A stretch of DNA of 64,000 nucleotides from positions 270,373 through 334,372 of IMG/VR virus record IMGVR_UViG_3300027899_000001; one strand, given 5' to 3'. Below, piece after piece: positions 25,433-63,354 of this stretch (position 1 is the first letter of the stretch; the number at the start of each line of letters is the position of its first letter). The translations under genes and the position numbers were made by a program. The DNA is from a virus. The notes below the pieces were generated by a model. The model was not told where the DNA came from, made no database searches, and saw only the letters and a list, made by a program, of their open reading frames with translations.

Positions 25433-26194
25433 ATGGGAAGAAAAAAACAAGAAATTATATTTGAAAAAAGACTCTGCGAAGAATGCAGTAATGAATTTAT
25501 AATAAATAAAAAATCAAAAAAGAGGTTTTGTTGTTCTATTTGTGCAAAAAGAAATAATGGAAAAAGAAATAAAGGAAAAAAACATTTTGATGAAATAAAC
25601 AAAAAGAAAGGATTAATTGGAGAAAAAAATCCAATGTTTGGAAGATCATATTATGATATTTGGATAAATAAATTTGGAAAAGAGATAGCAGACGAAAAAT
25701 TAAATCAAATTAAAGAAAATAAAAAAGGTAAAAAACATACTAAAGAACATAATAAAAAAATAAGTGAATCATTACGTGGTTTAAAAAATCCTTTCTTTGG
25801 AAAAAAACATAAACCCGAGTCATTAGCAAAAATAAGTGAAAACCATAGAGATTGTAAAGATAAAAATAATCCTATGTTTGGGCAGGGCGATAAAATTAGA
25901 AGAGAAAAAAATGGTTCATGGTTTGGAGGAATAAGTAATGAGCCTTATGATACACTATTTAATGAAGAACTTAAAACTAAAGTAAGAATTAGAGATAATT
26001 ATAAATGTGTTATTTGTGGAAAATCTGGGTATGTTGTGCATCATATAGATTATAATAAACATAATAGTATAGAAGAAAACTTAGTAACTTTGTGTAAAAG
26101 TGATCATATGAAAACAAATTCTCATAGAGATAGTTGGATAGAATTTTTTAAATCGATAATAAATATGTTGTATGAGTATAAAATTAAGCAATAA
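25433..26194 (+). CDS. HNH homing endonuclease with NUMOD3 repeats
   Basis: 253 residues. It has an N-terminal zinc knuckle (CEECSNEF ... CCSICAKR), then NUMOD3-type repeats (GEKNPMFGRS, LRGLKNPFFGKKH, KNNPMFGQGD) and a C-terminal HNH nuclease (VRIRDNYKCVICGKSGYVVHHIDYNKHNSIEENLVTLC). It sits between a truncated gmd start and the complete gmd, and its last 23 nt overlap the new gmd start. Confidence 0.9.
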   Translation: MGRKKQEIIFEKRLCEECSNEFIINKKSKKRFCCSICAKRNNGKRNKGKKHFDEINKKKGLIGEKNPMFGRSYYDIWINKFGKEIADEKLNQIKENKKGKKHTKEHNKKISESLRGLKNPFFGKKHKPESLAKISENHRDCKDKNNPMFGQGDKIRREKNGSWFGGISNEPYDTLFNEELKTKVRIRDNYKCVICGKSGYVVHHIDYNKHNSIEENLVTLCKSDHMKTNSHRDSWIEFFKSIINMLYEYKIKQ

Positions 26195-51707: not shown

Positions 51708-51967
51708 TAAATTTTCTTTAAAGGAAAATGAATTAAAATTTTATCTTCATCCACTTCATTTAAAGATTTTTCATCTTTATCTTCCTCATCGATTACATAT
51801 GCATTGCTATAAGCAAATTTTATGTATTCCATAGAGTTTTCATATGTTTTTCCTTTCTTCTCTAAAAAGTCAAACATATCGGATATCATTGCTTCACTAC
51901 TTTTGTAACTTACAATTTCAAGAGTAACTCTACCCACTAAATTTTTTTCATCTACAAATATTCTCAT
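51707..51967 (-). CDS. Hypothetical 86-residue protein
   Basis: MRIFVDEKNLVGRVTLEIVSYKSSEAMISDMFDFLEKKGKTYENSMEYIKFAYSNAY and an acidic tail ending HFPLKKI. Mixed alpha/beta. Its stop abuts the tRNA-Ser(CGA) gene. No family recognised. Confidence 0.6.
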   Translation of the reverse strand: MRIFVDEKNLVGRVTLEIVSYKSSEAMISDMFDFLEKKGKTYENSMEYIKFAYSNAYVIDEEDKDEKSLNEVDEDKILIHFPLKKI

Positions 51968-52316: not shown

Positions 52317-52328
52317 ATTAAAAATCGT

Positions 52329-52404
52329 TCCGAAGGAGGGGGTCGAACCCTCATGTAACCAATTACCCTTTCAACAGTGTATAAGACAGGGGGGATACTC
52401 CGGA
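52329..52404 (-). tRNA. D-arm-less tRNA, probable Ile(TAT)
   Basis: 76 nt. Acceptor TCCGGAG/CTTCGGA (7 bp) and T-arm GAGGG/CCCTC with TTCGACC are excellent. A 7-nt linker TATCCCC replaces the D-arm. The loop CTTATAC (TAT) sits on a weak stem (CCTGT/ACTGT), and the variable region holds a GTAA-TTGG-TTAC hairpin. Alignment with the D-arm-less tRNA-Ile(GAT) at 63183 (shared TATCC, CTxATAC, GGTAATTxGGTT) supports this reading. A degenerate class II tRNA is the alternative. Confidence 0.6.
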
Positions 52405-52529: not shown

Positions 52530-52730
52530 AATTAACTATGAGCATAGCCGCCATTCTGTTCTATTCCACCATTTGTCTATGCCTCAACCTTGTTATTATA
52601 GACCAGCTCACCGTCTAAACTATTTTGAGTTGCATCCTCGGCGGTTCAATCGATTATTAGTCTCCCTCCTTAAGCTGTGATGTGGCGAACTTCCTCACCT
52701 TTCGGCGCGATGGATCCTCGGTAGTTAATT
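52530..52730 (-). ncRNA. rnpB: Miniature RNase P RNA
   Basis: A 201-nt RNA with the conserved bacterial RNase P RNA blocks in order. The ends pair as P1 (9 bp, 52722-52730 with 52530-52538). A GNRA hairpin CGCC-GAAA-GGTG stands at P3 (52696-52707). CR I reads GAGGAAGTTCGCC (52684-52696), and the CR II region contains AACCGCCGA (52638-52646). CR IV reads GAGGCATAGACAAATG (52570-52585). CR V is ACAGAA followed by TGGCGGCTAT (52545-52559), where TGGCG pairs with CGCCA of CR I as P4. Cellular forms are ~350-400 nt, so peripheral helices are missing. It would cut tRNA 5' leaders, presumably with host RnpA. Confidence 0.85.
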
Positions 52731-58115: not shown

Positions 58116-59099
58116 TTAAAATTCAGGACATGGAAGAGCTCTCATTCGTTGTTTTCCATTTCTTTCAAAAAATCTATTAAATTCATAGATAAATGAAATT
58201 TCATGAGCTCCAACTGTTGCTCTATTGAGACTAGAAATTGTAAAATCGTAACTATAGCCAACAAATATATTTTTTGTTTTTAATCCTGCTAAACCTATAA
58301 CTGCATCTCCTGGTTGATTTGATAATCCTGGAATGCCTCTATACCAAAGTCCTAAAATAAGTGGAGGTCTTGCATAATAAACTCCTACATCTGCTTGATA
58401 AAACTTTCCTTGGGTTTGTAAATTAACTGCTAAAGAAACAACATCTTGTCGTTCTATTTTAAGTCTTTGTTTCTTTATTATTTGTATTCCTCCATATAAG
58501 TTTACCTTTACTGGAACTCTTGATTCATCTCCATAAAAAGAAATTTTAGGAGTTAACATATGATCTACTGTTACTCCACTCCATATTCTATCATTATACG
58601 CTATTATCGATGAAGCAAAGTCTATACTTGCTGAATTATCAAAAGTTGGTGGAATAACTGGAGGAGTATTGTTTATATTACTATTAAATATAAGTTTGTT
58701 AATATCTAATCCTAAATATTGAAATTTGAAATTAACACCAGGCCTTACATGCCATGTATTATTAATTTTAATATCATAAGAATATAAAGCTCCTATTGTT
58801 GTATTACTTAAATCTCCTGATCCTGCTACATCGTATGATGCAATTATTCCTATTCCTGAATTATATTGAGGTAACGCTTTATCAAATGAAACACTATAAG
58901 TGTTATAGATATTTGATATTCCAGGCCACTGATTTCTATAATTCATTGTTAATCTATAATCTTCTGTAGCACCTGCAAAAGATGGCGCTAACCATAACTT
59001 GTTGGCATAAAATTGTGAATACGTTGGATCTTGTGCAAAAGTATTTGAATAGATTACAAATAACAGAATAAATGAACATATGTATTTTACAATACGCAT
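58116..59099 (-). CDS. PorP/SprF-family outer-membrane protein
   Basis: 327 residues. Signal peptide (YICSFILLFVIYSNTFA/QDP), then the family opening DPTYSQFYANKLWLAPSFAGATEDYRLTMNYRNQWPGI, and barrel strands to the end (FVGYSYDFTISSLNRATVGAHEISFIYEF). PorP/SprF proteins associate with the T9SS and are usually encoded next to large type-B (CHU_C) cargo such as SprB, helping to export or anchor it. Here the type-B cargo is at 47682, about 8 kb away. Confidence 0.92.
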   Translation of the reverse strand: MRIVKYICSFILLFVIYSNTFAQDPTYSQFYANKLWLAPSFAGATEDYRLTMNYRNQWPGISNIYNTYSVSFDKALPQYNSGIGIIASYDVAGSGDLSNTTIGALYSYDIKINNTWHVRPGVNFKFQYLGLDINKLIFNSNINNTPPVIPPTFDNSASIDFASSIIAYNDRIWSGVTVDHMLTPKISFYGDESRVPVKVNLYGGIQIIKKQRLKIERQDVVSLAVNLQTQGKFYQADVGVYYARPPLILGLWYRGIPGLSNQPGDAVIGLAGLKTKNIFVGYSYDFTISSLNRATVGAHEISFIYEFNRFFERNGKQRMRALPCPEF

Positions 59100-59713
59100 T
59101 TTATTATATTTAATATATTATCGTTATATACTTCTAAATAATGTAATTCTATAATTTTCCATCCCTCGTTTTCAATTAAATTATGTCTATTTTGATAATA
59201 GGGTTTTAATGTTTTATTTTTATAATAATGTTGATTGCCATTAACTTCTATTCCTAATTTTAATTCAGGAAACGCTATATCTATTGAAAAATATCTATTT
59301 GGAAATAATGGTTGATATTCTTCTTCGAATGTTATCTTATTTTTCTTTAATATATCTTTTAAGTATTCACATGGTATCGAAATAAACTTTGTATTTTTTC
59401 TCCAGGGATGTTTTTCGGGGTTTTCTAATAAATACTGTTTTCTTTTATTAGACATTTGAATTTTTGTTTTTTCACTGTGGGTTTTTCCTTTATATGAAGG
59501 AGAATGTACTTTAATTCTTTTTTCTTTATATGATTTTGATAAAGTGTTTGCTTGTTTTTTTCTCTGCTCCGGTGTTATAGTAGATCTTACATAATTAAGG
59601 CCATTCACGTATATATTATATTTAGGATTTAATTTACACCATCTACTATGATTAGCTTTTTGAGATATTGTTAAATTTTCAAATTTTTTATTACAGTATT
59701 TACAAGATGTCAT
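59087..59713 (-). CDS. Vsr/DUF559-like homing endonuclease
   Basis: 208 residues. N-terminal zinc finger (CKYCNKKFENLTISQKANHSRWC), a NUMOD3-like basic middle (YKGKTHSEKTKIQMSNKRKQ) and a C-terminal nuclease of the Vsr/EDxHD type (RYFSIDIAFPELKLGIEVNGNQHYYK ... EGWKIIELHYLEV). Its stop overlaps the start of the PorP/SprF gene by 13 nt. Confidence 0.85.
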   Translation of the reverse strand: MTSCKYCNKKFENLTISQKANHSRWCKLNPKYNIYVNGLNYVRSTITPEQRKKQANTLSKSYKEKRIKVHSPSYKGKTHSEKTKIQMSNKRKQYLLENPEKHPWRKNTKFISIPCEYLKDILKKNKITFEEEYQPLFPNRYFSIDIAFPELKLGIEVNGNQHYYKNKTLKPYYQNRHNLIENEGWKIIELHYLEVYNDNILNIIKCVL

Positions 59714-59762
59714 AGTTTATTATATATATTCATGGATAAAATATGAGATTTATATATTTAGA

Positions 59763-59836
59763 GCCCTGGAAGGGATTCGAACCCTCATCGTTCCGTTACA
59801 TTACTACAGCTTAGAAGACTGCTATGATACCAGGGC
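59763..59836 (-). tRNA. D-arm-less tRNA-Arg(TCT)
   Basis: 74 nt. Perfect acceptor GCCCTGG/CCAGGGC. A 7-nt linker TATCATA stands where the D-arm should be. Anticodon stem GCAGT/GCTGT with loop CTTCTAA (TCT), an enlarged variable region of ~20 nt containing GTAAT, and T-arm GAGGG/CCCTT with TTCGAAT. Confidence 0.8.
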
Positions 59837-59848
59837 AAATTTTGTATC

Positions 59849-59925
59849 ATATGTGATACTTTGGAGTGAAAAACTACCATTAGTGTATCATATATAATTC
59901 ATTAGTATCATAAAAGATACTTTTT
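59849..59925. repeat. Short GTATCA/TGATAC inverted repeats between tRNAs
   Basis: Three copies of GTATCAT occur within ~70 nt, two of them in hairpins: GTATCA-TATG-TGATAC and AGTATC-loop-GATACT. The latter is followed by TTTTT on the plus strand and preceded by AAAAA. Possible processing or termination sites. Confidence 0.45.
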
Positions 59926-62927: not shown

Positions 62928-62931
62928 GTGT

Positions 62932-63015
62932 GGAAGGTAAGGGATTCGAACCCATGTGAACTATTCGCCTCTTGCTTGTAAAGCAAGTGCTCTGAACCAG
63001 CTGAGCTAACCTTCC
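62932..63015 (-). tRNA. tRNA-Val(TAC) with long variable arm
   Basis: 84 nt. Acceptor GGAAGGT/ACCTTCC, normal D-arm (GCTC...GAGC), anticodon stem CTTGC/GCAAG with loop TTTACAA (TAC), T-loop TTCGAAT. The variable region is 15 nt (AGGCGAATAGTTCAC) where valine tRNAs normally have 5. Confidence 0.85.
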
Positions 63016-63178: not shown

Positions 63179-63182
63179 TTGT

Positions 63183-63260
63183 GGGCAGAATGGGATTCGA
63201 ACCCACATTTTCAACCAAATTACCTTGGTCGTGTGTATCAGACACGCTGGATATCTGTCC
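63183..63260 (-). tRNA. D-arm-less tRNA-Ile(GAT)
   Basis: 78 nt. Acceptor GGACAGA/TCTGCCC (one mismatch), a 7-nt linker TATCCAG in place of the D-arm, a perfect anticodon stem CGTGT/ACACG with loop CTGATAC (GAT), and T-arm ATGTGGG/CCCAT with TTCGAAT. A variable region of ~23 nt forms an ACCAA/TTGGT hairpin. The clearest of the three D-arm-less genes. Confidence 0.82.
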
Positions 63261-63270
63261 TAAAATTTGC

Positions 63271-63354
63271 GTTTGGTGAAGGATTCGAACCTTCGATCGG
63301 ATTTCTCTCGACGGATTAACAGTCCGTTGTCGTGGGCCACTTGACTAACCAAAC
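63271..63354 (-). tRNA. tRNA-Asn(GTT) with long variable region
   Basis: 84 nt. Perfect acceptor GTTTGGT/ACCAAAC, D-stem GTC/GAC, anticodon stem ACGGA/TCCGT with loop CTGTTAA (GTT), T-arm GAAGG/CCTTC with TTCGAAT. The variable region is 16 nt, unlike ordinary asparagine tRNAs. Confidence 0.87.

Follow-up and report, generated by a model that had tools for sequence, protein, structure and literature searches.

A tRNA-Arg(UCU) gene with no D-arm in its usual place

The stretch of DNA that was analyzed (the window) comprises 64,000 bases, corresponding to positions 270373-334372 of a 405,016-base virus record. A tRNA-Arg(UCU) gene lies on its minus strand, running from 59836 to 59763 with the discriminator U at 59762 (Table 1), and reads GCCCTGG UAUCAUA GCAGU CUUCUAA GCUGU AGUAAUGUAACGGAACGAU GAGGG UUCGAAU CCCUU CCAGGGC, followed by U73. 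The acceptor stem (7/7 pairs), the T-stem (5/5, one G-U) and the anticodon stem (5/5, two G-U) are complete. The T-arm carries a canonical loop of the TTCRA type, and the 7-nt anticodon loop contains U33 and a purine at position 37. A 7-nt linker, UAUCAUA, leaves no room for a D-arm, and the variable region is enlarged to 19 nt. The first-pass annotation had described a perfect acceptor, this linker, an anticodon arm, an enlarged variable region and a normal T-arm, all of which held. Its choice of GTAAT as the variable-region motif failed: the gene contains GUAA twice, and the alignment of homologues marks the second copy, GUAAC (59799-59796), as functional, so that the first (GUAAU) is in the wrong register.

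No D-arm hairpin between the acceptor and the anticodon arm is present in this gene or in any family member. ARAGORN gave no call for the gene at 59762-59836. Infernal scored it at 36.8 bits against the Rfam tRNA model (RF00005), which exceeds the gathering score (29), in an alignment that omits the D-arm; apart from tRNA, no Rfam family reached its gathering score at the locus. A pattern describing the architecture (UAUC-N8-CUUCUAA-N5-N(10-26)-GGUUCGA) matched once in the window and in none of 100 dinucleotide shuffles. The minimum free energy fold of the single sequence was modestly better than that of shuffles (z -1.42) and placed the anticodon stem in a different register.

Two observations concern the immediate surroundings. 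Several GTATCAT...GATAC inverted repeats occupy window positions 59838-59925, between two tRNA-Arg genes, and their GTATCAT word also occurs inside the linker of the Arg(UCU) tRNA itself (GGTATCATA). The reading frame at 59087-59713 on the minus strand, directly downstream of the gene, encodes a small protein that matches the RAP domain (E 1.4e-6).

Table 1. Positions of the tRNA-Arg(UCU) gene, its parts, its sister genes and members of the class in named phages (window numbering for the first 13 rows, phage genome numbering below)
Feature	Position	Strand	Evidence or annotation
Whole tRNA-Arg(UCU) gene including U73	59762-59836	(-)	Infernal RF00005, 36.8 bits; family model R2, 72.4 bits
Acceptor 5' strand GCCCUGG (partner 59763-59769)	59830-59836	(-)	7/7 pairs; family helix 1 covaries, 98.4% paired
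Connector U8 A9 U10	59827-59829	(-)	UAUC in 179/193 full-helix genes (relaxed scan fixing only U8 A9)
C11 A12 U13, 5' strand of relocated D-type helix (partner 59799-59801)	59824-59826	(-)	3/3 pairs
Anticodon arm GCAGU CUUCUAA GCUGU (anticodon UCU at 59813-59815)	59806-59822	(-)	Sequence; family helix 3 covaries
Spacer AGUA, anticodon stem to 3' strand of relocated helix	59802-59805	(-)	Family length varies, mostly 3-8 nt
A U G, 3' strand of relocated D-type helix	59799-59801	(-)	Pairs with 59824-59826
Relocated D-loop: U, A14 (59797), A15 (59796), C, G18 G19 (59793-59794), A20 (59792)	59792-59798	(-)	
U48, putative Levitt partner of A15	59787	(-)	Family 15-48 covariation
T-arm GAGGG UUCGAAU CCCUU	59770-59786	(-)	Sequence; family helix 5 covaries
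Acceptor 3' strand CCAGGGC	59763-59769	(-)	Sequence
Sister tRNA-Ile(UAU), linker UAUCCCC, helix CCC/GGG, GUAAUUGGU	52328-52404	(-)	Family model R2, 76.6 bits
Sister tRNA-Ile(GAU), linker UAUCCAG, helix CC/GG plus A.A mismatch, GUAAUUUGGU	63182-63260	(-)	Family model R2, 56.0 bits
FelixO1	25951-26029		Rewired gene, unannotated
phi92	51874-51952		Rewired gene, unannotated
121Q	73585-73663		Rewired gene, annotated as tRNA-Leu(taa)
Yaboi			Three rewired genes, one annotated as tRNA-Val
Alishewanella Slicko01			Rewired gene, annotated as tRNA-Ser
TunaTartare, Limnohabitans DC31, Agrobacterium Atu_ph04, Klebsiella phages			Rewired gene present

Compensatory changes define a helix between linker and variable region

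The alignment used for covariation analysis contained 61 diverse members anchored on GUAA, and the acceptor, the helix pairing positions 11-13 with 40-42, the anticodon stem, the 15-48 pair and the T-stem were tested jointly. In these 61 members, 96.7% of the cells were paired, compared to 63.1% after shuffling and at most 44% when the columns were slid. The covariation score was 0.870, compared to 0.202 for shuffled alignments and 0.17 or less after a one-column slide. The 11-13 helix by itself was paired in 99.5% of the cells, and GC, UA, CG and AU all occur at positions 12 and 13. The pair at position 11 covaries as well: in a relaxed scan (n = 193) it was C-G in 185 genes, A-U in 7 (UAUA together with UUAA) and U-A in 1. 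A possible fourth pair (position 14) stayed at chance level when tested. Sequence covariation thus shows that C11 N12 N13 of the linker pair with N' N' G of the variable region, directly before a GUAR-type loop.

RNAalifold, run on the 61 members with no structure supplied, recovered the same 11-13 helix, and its consensus contained no hairpin within the variable region. A hairpin confined to that region, such as ACCAA/UUGGU in the Ile(GAU) gene, was considered and rejected, since it is not conserved and is missing from this consensus. The variable-region helix proposed at first reading therefore held in part: the conserved helix links the linker to the variable region and does not lie inside the latter. 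Likewise, "D-arm-less" was half right, as the D-arm is absent from its usual place while D-stem-like pairing and a D-loop-like segment have moved 3' of the anticodon arm.

A family model (R2) built on this architecture scored members at 48-85 bits and ordinary tRNAs at 38 at most. It has to be considered that the pattern scans required the UAUC start and the canonical T-loop, so that the conservation of both is partly imposed; the relaxed scan, in which 179 of 193 genes had UAUC, still used loci fetched by UAUC patterns.

The transplanted segment carries D-loop-like elements and a base that tracks identity

Downstream of the helix, the order is U-A-R, usually two bases, and then GG. GUAR and GG were found in all distinct members parsed from the first IMG/VR scan, though that scan required neither. 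The elements of the D-loop that serve tertiary contacts (A14, R15-Y48 and G18G19) are thus located within the variable region. Among 151 non-redundant genes, bases 15 and 48 were A-U in 139, G-C in 7, G-G in 3 and A-C in 2 (Fisher p=5e-14). The two positions behave like a Levitt pair 15-48; the tertiary contact itself is inferred from covariation alone.

The base at position 20 follows tRNA identity. Of 110 Arg genes, 107 have A there, as does 1 of the 41 others (p=8e-32), a coupling that also holds within length classes. N20 and the anticodon switch together when backbones 85-89% identical outside these two sites are compared, as in Val(UAC) L188 versus Arg(UCU) L077. The Fisher p-values assume independent sequences, and the members are related. 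A20 is the strongest arginine determinant for the E. coli ArgRS (PMC9976931). With A at the relocated position 20 and the anticodon UCU, the gene described here meets the bacterial tRNA-Arg criterion of A20, C35 and U/G36. Its discriminator, U73, departs from the A/G73 usual in bacterial tRNA-Arg; in the family, Arg(UCU) discriminators are mostly G or A, with U in 12 of 78, and U73 is also listed in the tRNA-Arg discriminator table of PMC9976931. N73 was A in every Ile member and mixed in Arg members, and CCA was encoded by 64 of the 151 genes. The coupling of N20 and N73 to identity, together with the encoded CCA, indicates selection for charging, although charging itself is inferred.

The class is widespread in phages and largely missed by annotation

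The first IMG/VR scan demanded only UAUC, CUUCUAA and GGUUCGA and returned at least 120 matches. Acceptor, anticodon and T-stems were also present in at least 107 of them, which are complete tRNA-Arg(UCU) genes of the same architecture; of the remainder, three were cut or damaged and ten were chance matches. A second scan, from which C35 anticodons were excluded, yielded 67 complete genes, namely Ile(UAU) (54), CAU (7), Ile(GAU) (4) and Val(UAC) (2). Scans for other C35 anticodons added Arg alone (CCU, ACG, UCG and CCG), with no Gly, Cys, Trp or Ser members. The synthetases for Arg, Ile, Val and Met all belong to class Ia.

The first-pass annotation had argued for a deliberate architecture over a single decayed gene, and this held: at least 151 non-redundant genes conserve linker and variable region with compensatory changes. 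It would have been refuted by homologues with an ordinary D-arm or by a lack of conservation of linker and variable helix. The closest homologues (e.g., L109) have the rewired design instead, and the two regions are conserved, hence there was no refutation.

Known phages also carry such genes, either unannotated or under other names (Table 1), and Streptomyces phages are among the carriers. A BLAST search with one representative retrieved 241 phage records at ≥80% query cover, mostly phages of Escherichia, Salmonella and Klebsiella. Matches in Mycobacterium, Rhodococcus and Caulobacter at a loose E-value were short or lost at a strict E-value and were excluded from the counts, and an apparent match to the tRNA-Arg of phage T5 has an ordinary D-arm and hence does not belong to the class. 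Of 27 IMG/VR loci, three had their rewired gene called by ARAGORN, and the ends were wrong in all three; tRNAscan-SE may detect some members. In bacteria, 84,980 species genomes gave 7 matches, of which 5 were real by the family model, and 98 genomes from a single family added two more cases, both located on large contigs. Neither genomes nor plasmids of E. coli matched the FelixO1 version. Within what the patterns can see, the class is overwhelmingly viral.

Two groups of members deserve separate mention. The Bacteroidota genomes L280, L281, L207 and L208 carry rewired Ile(UAU) in islands with WYL-PhyH and M41 protease genes; some of these islands add TROVE, Band-7, HD-AAA_33 and relaxase genes, and two hold tRNA arrays. 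Divergent members (L252-L256, L260 and L262) show UAUU/AUAA or UAAC starts and what looks like a bulged G in the new helix, or else a linker of 8 nt, and could represent further subtypes. No phage tRNA of this kind turned up in a search of the open full-text literature, which excluded preprints and most subscription papers, and an earlier report may exist.

Sister genes and genome setting

A three-gene version of the pattern gave three matches in the window, compared to 0 expected. The first-pass annotation had noted an Ile gene of the same design, which held, as both Ile(UAU) (52328-52404) and Ile(GAU) (63182-63260) share the layout. Neither ARAGORN nor Rfam at its gathering score detected the former; the latter reached 33.9 bits with the Rfam tRNA model in a small-region search. 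The virus record encodes about 40 tRNA genes on one strand. According to ARAGORN and strict tRNA-stem scans (used in place of a broad scan, whose chance matches are too many in AT-rich DNA), the anticodons UCU, GAU and UAU occur in the 405-kb record only in the three rewired genes, while other amino acids are served by ordinary tRNAs. One CAU tRNA in the record might be an Ile2 tRNA. In the window's open reading frames, AGA makes up 71% of the Arg codons and AUA 46% of the Ile codons. Given this codon use and the sole occurrence of the three anticodons, the rewired genes would cover the most frequent Arg codon and the whole set of Ile codons.

The major head protein is approximately 48% identical to that of the Lak megaphages of Prevotella, and the open reading frame at 58116-59099 (minus strand), a neighbor of the Arg(UCU) gene, encodes a PorP/SprF family membrane protein of the type IX secretion system (E 8e-59). 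From these two proteins we infer a host in the Bacteroidota as probable for this Lak-related jumbo phage. The rewired class was absent from three Lak megaphages related by capsid protein.

An RNase P RNA-like element with GAGGAA and ACAGAA core motifs lies inside the tRNA cluster (52540-52719, minus strand). In a local search, its best match was the archaeal RNase P model, at 44.7 bits (E 1.5e-11) and below the gathering score of 84; it may be a reduced, phage-encoded RNase P RNA. A tRNA with a CUA anticodon, named tRNA-Pyl by ARAGORN, is found at L011:3927-4000 (G000 353926-353999, outside the window) and is possibly an amber suppressor in a Lak-related phage. tRNA-Val(UAC) (62930-63015) and tRNA-Asn(GUU) (63269-63354), both on the minus strand, have enlarged variable regions, which are unusual for these identities.

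A functional tRNA with permuted strand order is the best explanation

We consider it very likely (probability of roughly 0.85) that the gene is a functional, AGA-reading phage tRNA-Arg(UCU) belonging to a widespread class of rewired topology, while RNA, charging and structure data are lacking. The helix with its covariation, the covariation of 15 with 48, the invariant GG and the tracking of identity by N20 are shown; the three-dimensional fold, expression, charging and decoding are inferred. An ordinary tRNA has the order 5' D-strand, D-loop, 3' D-strand, anticodon arm. The proposed rewired order would be 5' D-strand (C11 N12 N13), anticodon arm, spacer, 3' D-strand (N' N' G), D-loop (U A14 R15 Y Y G18 G19 N20), base 48 and T-arm. 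The short helix would extend the anticodon stem in place of the D-stem stack, and the transplanted loop would supply the U8-A14, R15-Y48, G18-Psi55 and G19-C56 contacts and present N20. Because the loop would restore these contacts and present the identity base, the L-shape may be kept and host synthetases may still charge the molecule: ArgRS via A20 and C35 U36, and IleRS in the case of the sister genes. The likeliest role would be to provide AGA-reading (and AUA-, AUU- and AUC-reading) capacity in a form unlike that of the host tRNAs. That this form protects against tRNA-targeting defenses is plausible, with no test data available.

The strongest rival, which remains possible, is that of a decoy or nuclease-resistant stand-in: a tRNA-shaped and perhaps charged molecule, selected for evading or soaking up host enzymes that act on tRNAs by cleavage or modification. 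It presumes that such enzymes recognize the ordinary D-arm or elbow. In its favor, phage tRNAs have been reported to evade tRNA-targeting defenses via anticodon-loop changes (PMC10264068), and two Bacteroidota genomes place the Ile(UAU) class in tRNA arrays resembling RNA-repair or conflict islands. These arrays are flanked by WYL-PhyH, TROVE/Ro60 or Band-7, M41 protease, HD-AAA_33 kinase and relaxase genes, with related neighbors at two more loci. However, a pure decoy needs neither an identity-matched N20 and N73 nor an encoded CCA, and the decoy function is compatible with decoding rather than opposed to it. Simple loss of the D-arm, with its contacts unreplaced as in some animal mitochondrial tRNAs, would fit the retention of acceptor, anticodon and T-arms and the missing D-arm at the usual place. 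We regard it as unlikely, because the helix between linker and variable region covaries, A14, R15 and GG are invariant, 15 covaries with 48, and N20 follows identity.

A nontranslating tRNA-like RNA, either a tRNA mimic of the Ro60/Y-RNA type or a regulatory RNA, might be suggested by the TROVE/Ro-like genes near some members (Yaboi and one bacterial island). This is very improbable given the intact anticodon loops (U33, purine at 37), the restriction of anticodons to Arg, Ile, CAU and Val, the identity-matched N20 and N73, and the fact that only the Rfam tRNA model reaches its gathering score at the locus. The ARAGORN miss and the low Rfam score of 36.8 bits could point to a decayed gene or a chance resemblance to a tRNA; this is all but ruled out by the 151 or more non-redundant members, in which every helix shows compensatory changes, and by the lack of chance matches in shuffles.

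Beyond the functional tRNA-Arg(UCU) itself, a bolder reading appears likely to us as one joint claim: the genes form a new structural class of tRNA whose strand topology is permuted and which occurs almost exclusively in phages; the class is limited to amino acids of class Ia synthetases (Arg, Ile, Val and perhaps Met); and the D-loop, together with the synthetase identity base 20, has been relocated to a site 3' of the anticodon arm with the L-shaped core kept. If so, the element order of the cloverleaf is not needed for a functional elongator tRNA, and a class that keeps the D-loop contacts while changing strand order would constitute a natural experiment in tRNA architecture. Well-known phages (FelixO1, phi92, 121Q and many Klebsiella, Salmonella and Streptomyces phages) would then possess a tRNA that has so far been hidden, phage tRNA inventories and arguments based on codon usage would need correction, and there would be a concrete candidate, open to experiment, for tRNAs able to bypass host enzymes that recognize ordinary elbows. 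Since phages of laboratory E. coli K-12 carry the class, among them PaulScherrer (MZ501100), EmilieFrey (MZ501063) and JohannJBalmer (MZ501084), direct testing is feasible.

Comparison with known tRNAs and tRNA-like RNAs

The cloverleaf, D-arm included, is regarded as universal except in some organelles; the present class suggests that this core can apparently be rewired in phages. With ordinary class I tRNA-Arg(UCU), such as that of phage T5, the rewired gene shares the acceptor, anticodon arm, T-arm, U8, A14, R15-Y48, G18G19 and A20, as well as an encoded CCA in many members and the same predicted job. The T5 Arg(AGA) gene, however, has an ordinary D-arm, whereas the rewired class places helix and D-loop 3' of the anticodon arm in permuted strand order. 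D-armless animal mitochondrial tRNAs, e.g., tRNA-Ser(AGN), resemble the class in that a short linker replaces the D-arm and three arms are left; they have no substitute GG-bearing D-loop, and their T-loops are usually degenerate. In contrast, the rewired class combines a canonical T-loop with a D-loop at another site. Class II tRNAs have a long variable arm, and an enlarged variable region is common to both groups, but that of the rewired class pairs with the 5' linker and forms no hairpin of its own, and the D-arm is absent. YrlA-type bacterial Y RNAs carry tRNA-like modules, and Ro60-type genes are sometimes found nearby. Unlike these RNAs, the rewired class has a standard anticodon arm, identity-matched bases and no long Ro-binding stem.
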